DNA of 64,000 nt from Anaerolineae bacterium (GTDB lineage Bacteria > Chloroflexota > Anaerolineae > DRVO01). Position 1 is the first letter of the stretch. Each line of letters starts with the position of its first letter. Position numbers and translations under genes: made by a program. The DNA is taken from the NCBI GenBank assembly GCA_013178015.1, contig JABLXR010000012.1, forward strand, positions 1-64,000. The letters are read 5' to 3'. Positions 1-40,408 of this stretch are shown here, piece by piece. The notes beneath the pieces are model-generated. The model had not been told where the DNA came from. It saw only the letters and a program-made list of their open reading frames with translations, and made no database searches.

Positions 1-298
1 CAGCTCAGGATCGGGGGGACACATGCCGACCAGCGCCGTCGCTGCGCTCGGATTAGGCGAGCCAGCCCCGACTGCACCGCAGGTACACCTTCCTTGGAGG
101 AGTGCGCGCGCCCACGCGCGCTGTCCCTCCAAGTGCCTACCGCGCCTGGGGGCGCGGACTCCTCAGGAGGAGGCTGGAACCTGCCAGGATGCTGGCGCTT
201 TGTCCTCCTAGCCGGCCGAAGAGCCTGCCGCGAAAGCCTGTCAGGAAACCACCTGCGTGTGACTGCCGGCTGAACACACTCGTCCCCCCGATCCTGAG
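1..298. ncRNA. Candidate structured RNA of unknown class, about 295 nt
   Basis: Positions 4-20 and 282-298 are perfect 17-bp inverted repeats that would close a multibranched fold. Inside are a hairpin at 93-133 (CTTGGAGG with CCTCCAAG, capped by GCGCGCG/CGCGCGC), one at 140-157, one at 183-196 (GCCAG/CTGGC) and a stem pairing 210-216 with 265-271. Bases 165-171 can pair with 203-209, or 159-163 can pair with 168-172; these two pairings exclude each other. I looked for and did not find the conserved cores of RNase P RNA, tmRNA, SRP RNA, 6S RNA or a cobalamin riboswitch. The strand is open: the minus strand has an extended -10-like TGATACACT at 334-342. A MITE with 17-bp ends is the main alternative. 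A gene-free stretch continues to 572, where I see nothing further. Confidence 0.45.
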
Positions 299-572
299 TT
301 CTTGCGTCGGGCTTTGTGAGCCCCCACGAGACCAGTGTATCATGGCTTGTGGGCGCAGCCCGGCCAGGACCGGATCACGGCCCGTCTCGTTTGGCACCCT
401 GGTGCAACGCCGGTTCTGCTCCGATCGGGAAAGTAGGGTCGCCCTCTCAAAGCGACCGCGCGGTTCCGCCGGGCAGCGATCCGCCTGCGTCTCCGCCTAG
501 CACCAAGTATGGTCTGGGAGGCAAGCATGGTAGGCGACGCGGGTCGCTCCGGCGGGTCGGAGGTCGTGACCT

Positions 573-1319
573 ATGCCGAATCACATAGAGCGTGACAGCG
601 CACCGCTCCCTGGCACGCGACCTTCGCGTCCCAGAGCGACGGGAAGCTCCGGCTACAGGGCCTTCGACTTCATCATGGCCCTGTTTGTGGCCGTCTTGCT
701 CATCAGCAACGTGGCCTCCAGCAAGATACTGCGATTGGGGCCATTCTCGTTCGATGGCGGCACCCTCCTCTTCCCCGTCAGCTACATCTTCGGGGACATT
801 CTAACCGAGGTATACGGCTATGCTCGCTCTCGCCGGGTAATATGGGCCGGTTTCTTCGCCGCGCTGCTCATGGGAGCCACCCTAGCCATGGTCGGCTGGC
901 TTCCCCCGGCCCAGGGCTGGGAGCACCAGGAGGCGTACCTGGCCATCCTAGGACAGACTCCGAGGATCGTGGTCGGTTCGGTGATCGCCTACTTCGCTGG
1001 CGAGTTCTCTAACTCCTACACTCTGGCCCGCCTGAAGCTCGTCACCCGTGGCCGGTTCCTGTGGCTGCGCACCATCGGCTCCACCGTGGTGGGCGAGGGC
1101 GTGGACACGGTGCTCTTCGTGCTGATTGCTTTCGCCGGCGTGCTGCCAGCTCCGCTCCTCACCGCCGTGATGGCCAGCAACTATGCTTTCAAGGTCGGCA
1201 TAGAAGTGCTCGCCACTCCGGCTACCTACCGCCTGGTCAATTACCTCAAGCGTATCGAGGGCGAGGATTACTACGACTGGGATACGGACTTCAGCCCCTT
1301 CACCCTGGCAGGCGCGTAG
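573..1319 (+). CDS. yhhQ: Queuosine precursor transporter, YhhQ/VUT family
   Basis: This 248-residue integral membrane protein has about six hydrophobic segments and the family hallmark FGDILTEVYGY at residues 73-83, with SNVASSK at 45-51. YhhQ proteins import the queuosine precursors preQ0 or preQ1 for tRNA modification. The N-terminal 30 residues are polar and probably cytoplasmic. A GGAGG sits about 9 nt before the ATG. The next gene, era, starts immediately after the stop codon, so the two are probably co-transcribed. Later pathway genes queH and queA lie near 41 kb. The family assignment is strong; the exact substrate is inferred from the family. Confidence 0.88.
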   Translation: MPNHIERDSAPLPGTRPSRPRATGSSGYRAFDFIMALFVAVLLISNVASSKILRLGPFSFDGGTLLFPVSYIFGDILTEVYGYARSRRVIWAGFFAALLMGATLAMVGWLPPAQGWEHQEAYLAILGQTPRIVVGSVIAYFAGEFSNSYTLARLKLVTRGRFLWLRTIGSTVVGEGVDTVLFVLIAFAGVLPAPLLTAVMASNYAFKVGIEVLATPATYRLVNYLKRIEGEDYYDWDTDFSPFTLAGA

Positions 1320-39824: not shown

Positions 39825-40408
39825 GGCTCTGCCTCCGGCCCTACCAGCACGAGCACCACCGAGTCCGCCTCAGTGCGAATCTCCTCCATGCACCAGCCGG
39901 AACCAAGTGCTCGCTCCAACTCAACCTGTAAGCTCCCAGCCAGGCGCGCTAGCAGCGGGTGCGTCATCGCTGTAGCTTCAGTCGCGTCCATTCCGCCAGG
40001 CAGCTCGCTGCTCAGCAGCCGGAACTCCAGGTTGCCATCCCGCACTGTCACCCCAAGTCGAAATGACACCGGGAGCCCCAGCTCCCGACCTAGAACGGTC
40101 ATCGTCGCCTGCCCGCGGATCACGAGCTCGTTGCCGGGCATGGCCTCTACCTCGATGCCCTGCAGCGGACCACCGGCTAGGGAGGCCGATACTAGCCGCC
40201 CGAGGTACTCCTCCGACAAGGCGACGCTCACTCGGTCCTCGGCGATCGTCGCCCGGTCAGCGCCCACGGGGGACGGTTCTCGAGCCACCAGGCCCACCAG
40301 GACGTACACCACCACTCCCAGGAGCAGACCTGGGAGCAGGGCACAGCCGCATCCGAGAGCCCCGGAGCGCTCGTTGTCCACCGTATCCTCCACGCCCGCC
40401 TGTTTCAT
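39821..40408 (-). CDS. Membrane-anchored protein, possibly lipid-binding-like fold
   Basis: The 195-residue protein has a short cytoplasmic start, one membrane helix (about 23-43) and an exported region rich in alternating beta strands (VSVALSEEYLGRLVSASL, LVIRGQATMTVLG, VSFRLGVTVRDGNLEF). This recalls the LmeA/DUF2993 or DUF2140 type of lipid-binding proteins, but the match is only by look. It overlaps the next gene by 4 nt. Confidence 0.6.
   Translation of the reverse strand: MKQAGVEDTVDNERSGALGCGCALLPGLLLGVVVYVLVGLVAREPSPVGADRATIAEDRVSVALSEEYLGRLVSASLAGGPLQGIEVEAMPGNELVIRGQATMTVLGRELGLPVSFRLGVTVRDGNLEFRLLSSELPGGMDATEATAMTHPLLARLAGSLQVELERALGSGWCMEEIRTEADSVVLVLVGPEAEP

Follow-up and report, generated by a model that had tools for sequence, protein, structure and literature searches.

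A dispersed, probably MITE-like element carrying a REP hairpin doublet in an Anaerolineae genome

The first positions of the analyzed window, a stretch of 64,000 nucleotides at the start of a contig from an Anaerolineae bacterium, correspond to one copy of a composite repeat with a unit of about 310 bp that extends from position 1 to approximately 305. The structure observed in this region is real, but it is that of a dispersed DNA repeat and not that of an RNA gene or of a leader. With good confidence, we interpret the unit as a non-autonomous MITE-like element of about 310 bp which carries a REP doublet belonging to a family spread across the Anaerolineae. The features of this copy and of its surroundings are the following:

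1 to 305, plus strand: copy of the composite repeat, delimited from aligned copies; its first four nucleotides (GTAA) are on contig C36
1 to 20, plus strand: left terminal inverted repeat, CAGCTCAGGATCGGGGGGAC; preceded by GTAG or GTAA in other copies
86 to 151, plus strand: 66-bp unit carrying a REP; some other copies contain it as a tandem repeat (in L038, about 3.5 times)
97 to 121, plus strand: REP hairpin with a GAGGAGT tag (GGAG at its foot), a stem at 104-110/115-121 and a CCCA loop at 111-114
140 to 164, minus strand: inverted REP hairpin, GAGGAGT-CCGCGCC-CCCA-GGCGCGG on the minus strand
282 to 305, minus strand: right terminal inverted repeat, GCAAGAACTCAGGATCGGGGGGAC on the minus strand; family consensus GTAAGAGCTCAGGATCGGGGGGAC
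306 to 313, plus strand: target-site duplication GTCGGGCT; its partner is on C36 directly before GTAA (8/8 at offset 4/4)
573 to 1319, plus strand: neighboring gene for a putative queuosine precursor transporter of the Vut_1/YhhQ type (PF02592, E = 1.5e-51), outside the element

The window starts inside the repeat and the first four bases of the element thus fall on another contig, C36, whose positions 1-127 are 100% identical to positions 1-127 of the window (127 bases). The copy on contig C58 begins with these 127 bases too, and this sharing accounts for the break of the assembly at the window start. The preliminary description of this DNA had reported a structured element at 4-298, closed by a perfect 17-bp stem (4-20/282-298) and containing nested hairpins, a stem at 210-216/265-271 and two competing pairings at 159-209. 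The closing stem and the 210-216/265-271 stem are indeed present in the sequence, and the nested hairpins both in the sequence and in the predicted fold. The competing pairings are real as well: AGGAGGA (165-171) can pair either with CTCCTC (159-164) or with TCCTCCT (203-209), and CTCCTC is also able to pair with GAGGAG at 97-102. As for the extent, the stem and the structure were confirmed but the true element is slightly longer (1 to approximately 305), and the inverted repeat itself lengthens to 2-3/299-300 with one G-U pair. That description had overlooked the nested REP hairpin doublet, which is the source of most of the internal folding.

The element is not restricted to this location. 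A sequence search of the organism's own genome (4.57 Mb in 97 contigs) retrieved 91 matches. Once merged, they define about 40 loci whose identity to the window copy is 67-96%; about 8 of these loci are complete or almost complete. The copies are 240-500 bp long and devoid of transposase genes, and their internal length varies through expansions of the 66-bp unit and deletions. They are intergenic (33 of the 34 placed copies) and the gene families that adjoin them are unrelated to each other. The full element is absent from one genus-mate, one family-mate and the other genomes of the class that were searched, in which only short and weak matches were found. The genes around the 34 placed copies are arranged in tandem in 22 cases, divergently in 10 and convergently in 2. 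This distribution is unlike the preference for downstream positions reported for the GTAG and CGTC REPs (PMC3733652), the local background for this comparison being small. A local effect of the element on the transcription of its neighbors is possible. Some copies have peculiarities of their own. Three of them (L046, L051 and L057) share a different, mutually similar insert of about 50-70 bp (...GTCGGCCATCTCTACC.CCTATCATACGAGGAG...) directly before the REP, and another (L054, 903-1140) is a foldback copy in which both halves consist of left-end sequence, inverted, with a REP in the middle. A diverged right-flank stretch of about 120 bp (AGGGCTTTCTCAAAGTCGAGCC...) is common to L072 (1124-1258) and to the flank of L029, so this neighboring stretch is itself repeated.

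This dispersal bears directly on one of the readings put forward in the preliminary description, namely a regulatory leader acting in cis on the gene for the queuosine precursor transporter. The identification of the downstream gene as a Vut_1/YhhQ-type transporter held, and the element does lie upstream of it and on the same strand. Nevertheless, about 268 nt separate the end of the element from the start codon, and other copies adjoin genes for DegV, aminotransferase, glycosyltransferase, S1-domain and radical SAM proteins, among others. Moreover, no Rfam covariance model, including those of preQ1 and other riboswitches, matched positions 1-305 at E values up to 5. The transporter gene is simply the neighbor of this one copy; the location of some 40 loci next to unrelated genes refutes a dedicated leader, a reading to which we would now grant hardly any probability.

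The closing stem corresponds to a terminal inverted repeat, GTARSAGCTCAGGATCGGGGGGAC, of roughly 24 bp (element ends in short form: GTARSAGCTCAGGATCGGGG). The copies open with GTAG or GTAA followed by CAGCTCAGG and close with CCTGAGCTC followed by TTAC or TTGC. Allowing up to 2 mismatches, the end sequence CAGCTCAGGATCGGGG has 80 matches genome-wide, compared to 3 for the control. When the flank in the window is joined to the flank on C36, GTCGGGCT appears on both sides of the element (8/8), and further clear 8/8 duplications surround L032, L039, L041 and L057. The flanking 8-mers match at 7 or more of their 8 positions in 12 of 35 candidate end pairs, a result that none of 2000 permutations equaled. 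With the offset fixed at 4/4, the 8-bp repeat averages 56% identity versus 27% in mismatched flanks, and at fixed offset the repeats of any other length reach 33% at most. One locus (L031) has a longer repeat of 12 bases whose left side begins in element-like sequence; its origin is less clear. Since the target duplications are mostly imperfect or decayed, most insertions of the element are probably old. The preliminary description had given many dispersed copies with target duplications, and a lack of covariation, as grounds for refutation. All of this was observed (for the covariation of the closing stem, see below), which upholds its MITE option and leaves the other two unsupported.

Bacterial MITEs are likewise non-coding, intergenic, multicopy elements of less than 500 bp with terminal inverted repeats and target duplications. 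The present element differs from them in its cargo, a REP doublet with a variable number of 66-bp units, and in that no parent insertion sequence was found in the assembly. Paired ends are only 0.2-0.5 kb apart in this assembly, and no autonomous element with identical ends was found there. The exact terminal repeat pattern had no match in a scan of other named genomes, a scan from which the organism's own genome may have been missing. The IS66 family was considered as a possible parent. The ends of this family have GTAA-type outer bases. The element shares these outer bases as well as the 8-bp target duplication, a length given for two IS66 elements (PMC3281130), but its inner terminal repeat sequence is unmatched. 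The IS66 transposase (PF03050) had no match in the organism's own genome (G000) or in two other genomes (G001 and G002). Given its absence from the own genome, this candidate parent was rejected and membership in IS66 is not claimed. In a further genome (G003), an IS66 gene is located between inverted repeats containing GTAAC, yet the adjoining bases continue the inverted repeat instead of forming a direct duplication, and this gene thus lends no support to an IS66 parentage.

The other reading offered in the preliminary description was a new non-coding RNA, in this case a structured molecule of about 300 nt with the 17-bp stem as its closing helix and multicopy by chance. The predicted fold of the 300-nt stretch is certainly strong on both strands (-158.9 kcal/mol and z = -6.2 on the plus strand, -165.9 kcal/mol and z = -5.0 on the minus strand, relative to dinucleotide shuffles), and none of the shuffles folded as well as the real sequence. 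In an alignment of ten copies, 13 pairs of the whole predicted fold changed on both sides versus 7.4 in shuffles, but this modest signal comes from few and related sequences and does not include any pair of the closing stem. Indeed, double-sided changes affect 0 of the 19 closing-stem pairs in the ten full-length copies (alignment A2). When 30 copies are considered, 88 cells of this stem changed on one arm only, and the 3 double-sided changes that keep the pair hardly exceed the 2.2 expected from permutation; the compensatory changes that would have supported an RNA at 4-20/282-298 are therefore not in excess. The distribution of the structure along the element points in the same direction. 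The segments between the terminal repeats and the REPs, on both strands, fold no better than shuffles (z = -0.75, +0.20, +0.42 and +0.45), whereas the DNA fold of the hairpin doublet (94-169) has z scores of -6.0 and -4.6. As the intervening segments fold like shuffles, all of the excess structure can be ascribed to the terminal repeats plus the inner hairpins. In view of the modest covariation over the whole fold, the internal folding may nevertheless have a further role. The flanking target duplications, the changes of internal length by 66-bp unit expansions and deletions, the absence of the whole element from the genus-mate and the lack of an Rfam match also speak against a non-coding RNA, which appears very unlikely. 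A protein-coding interpretation of the open reading frame at 102-500 was rejected too: its G + C content is 0.71 at third positions and 0.68 at second positions, while these values differ by about 0.3-0.4 in the real genes of this DNA.

The inner hairpins at 97-121 (GAGGAGT-GCGCGCG-CCCA-CGCGCGC) and 140-164 are a REP/inverted-REP doublet of the REPIN-like type. The general build of the family comprises a GGAG(T) tag, a GC-rich stem of 7-8 bp and a loop that is mostly CCCA. The pattern GAGGAGTN7CCCA occurs 166 times in the organism's own genome (control: 2) and 0-7 times in each of 59 relatives, the highest value corresponding to a genome (G022) that has such hairpins too. The REPs form regular arrays, some with alternating orientation, in addition to inverted doublets; a CRISPR-like array was ruled out because the spacers between the cores were themselves repeated. 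The stems covary: among 21 distinct forms collected from own-genome loci, Watson-Crick pairs occupy 109 of 147 cells, compared to a mean of 91 and a maximum of 104 in 5000 shuffles. The outermost pair of the stem can be G-C, T-A or C-G, and the innermost G-C, C-G or T-A. With a degenerate pattern wide enough to include the observed stems, 84,980 species were then scanned (one genome per species), and 107 stretches matched. Among the 80 matches listed, 76 belong to Chloroflexota MAGs (Anaerolineae, Anaerolineales, Caldilineae, Thermoflexales and unnamed Chloroflexi, but mainly Anaerolineae), and the stems are broken in most of the other 4. This degenerate pattern itself favors paired stems, and covariation is claimed only from the 21 own-genome forms. 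Elsewhere in the window (40069-40087), a hairpin of 7 bp has a loop of the CCCA type but lacks the GGAG tag; it is unrelated and probably due to chance.

The REP family has a plausible enzymatic partner in relatives of this organism. RAYT genes of a single clade are flanked by GGAG-tagged hairpins in five members of the class (L225, L226, L239, L240 and L252). In alignment A1, the members of this clade are 62-69% identical to the first one, and the clade profile matches the structure of the Escherichia coli TnpArep (PDB 4er8, E = 4e-11). Two hairpin copies precede the RAYT gene of L225 and one inverted copy follows it; hairpins of like build are found on both sides of the gene in L226, L239 and L240; and in L252, which a clade-profile search retrieved, the hairpins have the GAGGAG tag and a different loop. 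The genomes that contain these hairpin-flanked genes have 21-158 REP matches each (control: 0), so that 2-3 of them within about 200 bp of a RAYT gene would not be expected by chance. Two more members of the clade (L250 and L251) have no clear GGAG hairpins. The link between this RAYT clade and the GGAG hairpins is therefore strong but not universal. The clade profile had no match in the organism's own assembly. The single Y1 gene of this genome is RAYT-like (L068, 1435-1848, on contig C21 of G000) and is flanked by GTAG-CCGGAGGGTT-ACCCTCCGG hairpins, of which there are only 4 copies genome-wide. This gene was rejected as the source of the REP cores, since its hairpins are GTAG-tagged and constitute a different family. 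More distant RAYT genes of the class (L256-L276) are flanked by repeated hairpins of their own that have other tags, such as GCTC before the stem; a wider range of REP tags in the Chloroflexota is thus hinted at.

Several features are common to the present family and to the known REP/BIME/REPIN systems with their RAYT (TnpAREP): a short palindrome located between genes, an invariant tag of 4 nt at the base of the hairpin, doublets in opposite orientation, arrays, high copy number, covarying stems and the flanking of RAYT genes, here in relatives. They differ in the tag, GGAG instead of the GT[AG]G and CGTC of the published REP superfamilies (PMC3733652, PMC6006769), in the mostly CCCA loop, in the nesting of the doublet, in this genome, within a larger element with terminal inverted repeats and in that no cognate RAYT was detected in the own genome. 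The TIRtrons and double TIRs of Pseudomonas (PMC3733652) offer another parallel, as their REP units, too, adjoin inverted repeats of unrelated sequence and number hundreds of copies; yet Pseudomonas TIRtrons flank RAYT genes, whereas the element described here has 8-bp duplications and no RAYT. These TIRtrons raise the question of whether the whole 310-bp unit could be a REP/RAYT-family element, that is, a derivative of a TIR-type REPtron mobilized exclusively by a Y1 transposase, without the action of a DDE enzyme. The description of RAYT elements with long terminal inverted repeats (PMC3733652) and the GTAG that opens the left end of many copies would be congruent with it. However, Y1 transposition of the IS200/IS605 type makes no larger duplications (PMC2817692), unlike the 8-bp duplications observed here, and the own genome yielded no RAYT bounded by these ends. 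This possibility consequently seems unlikely.

In the favored MITE-like interpretation, two kinds of enzymes would act on the same unit. A DDE-type transposase provided in trans would have cut and joined the terminal inverted repeats, leaving the 8-bp target duplications and thereby spreading the element in this lineage. The REP hairpins may in turn be recognized as single-stranded DNA by a RAYT (an HuH, Y1 transposase) and then spread, as RAYTs are thought to spread REPs through single-stranded DNA (PMC2817692, PMC6006769, PMC8266576). The REP doublet would ride in the MITE-like element either as a passenger or as a second engine. The multicopy dispersal, the terminal repeats, the target duplications, the REP family with its covarying stems and the RAYT genes flanked by such hairpins in relatives are observations, whereas the acting transposases, the single-strand recognition and any present-day transposition are inferred. 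Dispersed REP doublets and MITEs are already known kinds of repeats. The word GGAG is absent from the REP/RAYT papers searched, and nothing linking REPs to the Anaerolineae was found; as far as these searches show, the GGAG-tagged family, the RAYT clade associated with it and the nesting of its doublets inside an element of the DDE type are new. We lean slightly towards a broader proposal, in which the GGAG-tagged hairpins represent a third REP superfamily, class-wide and with its own RAYT clade, whose doublets were captured in this lineage by a DDE-type MITE. A single 310-bp unit would in that case bear the ends of two unrelated systems, one acting on double-stranded DNA (DDE) and the other on single-stranded DNA (HuH).

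The present results show that one candidate for a new class of RNA was false, as its impressive fold is made up of transposon ends and REP palindromes. They may also be relevant to the study of REPs, a field in which these sequences are defined by their GTAG tag and the CGTC sequences constitute an orphan second superfamily. According to the guide-tag model, the last two bases of the tag choose a CT cleavage site (PMC8266576). Compared to GTAG, the GGAG tag keeps the AG and changes the second base; if the proposal is true, a GGAG family with matched RAYT genes would make this model testable. The association between RAYTs and REPs would then also reach Chloroflexota hairpins that are invisible to a GTAG search.
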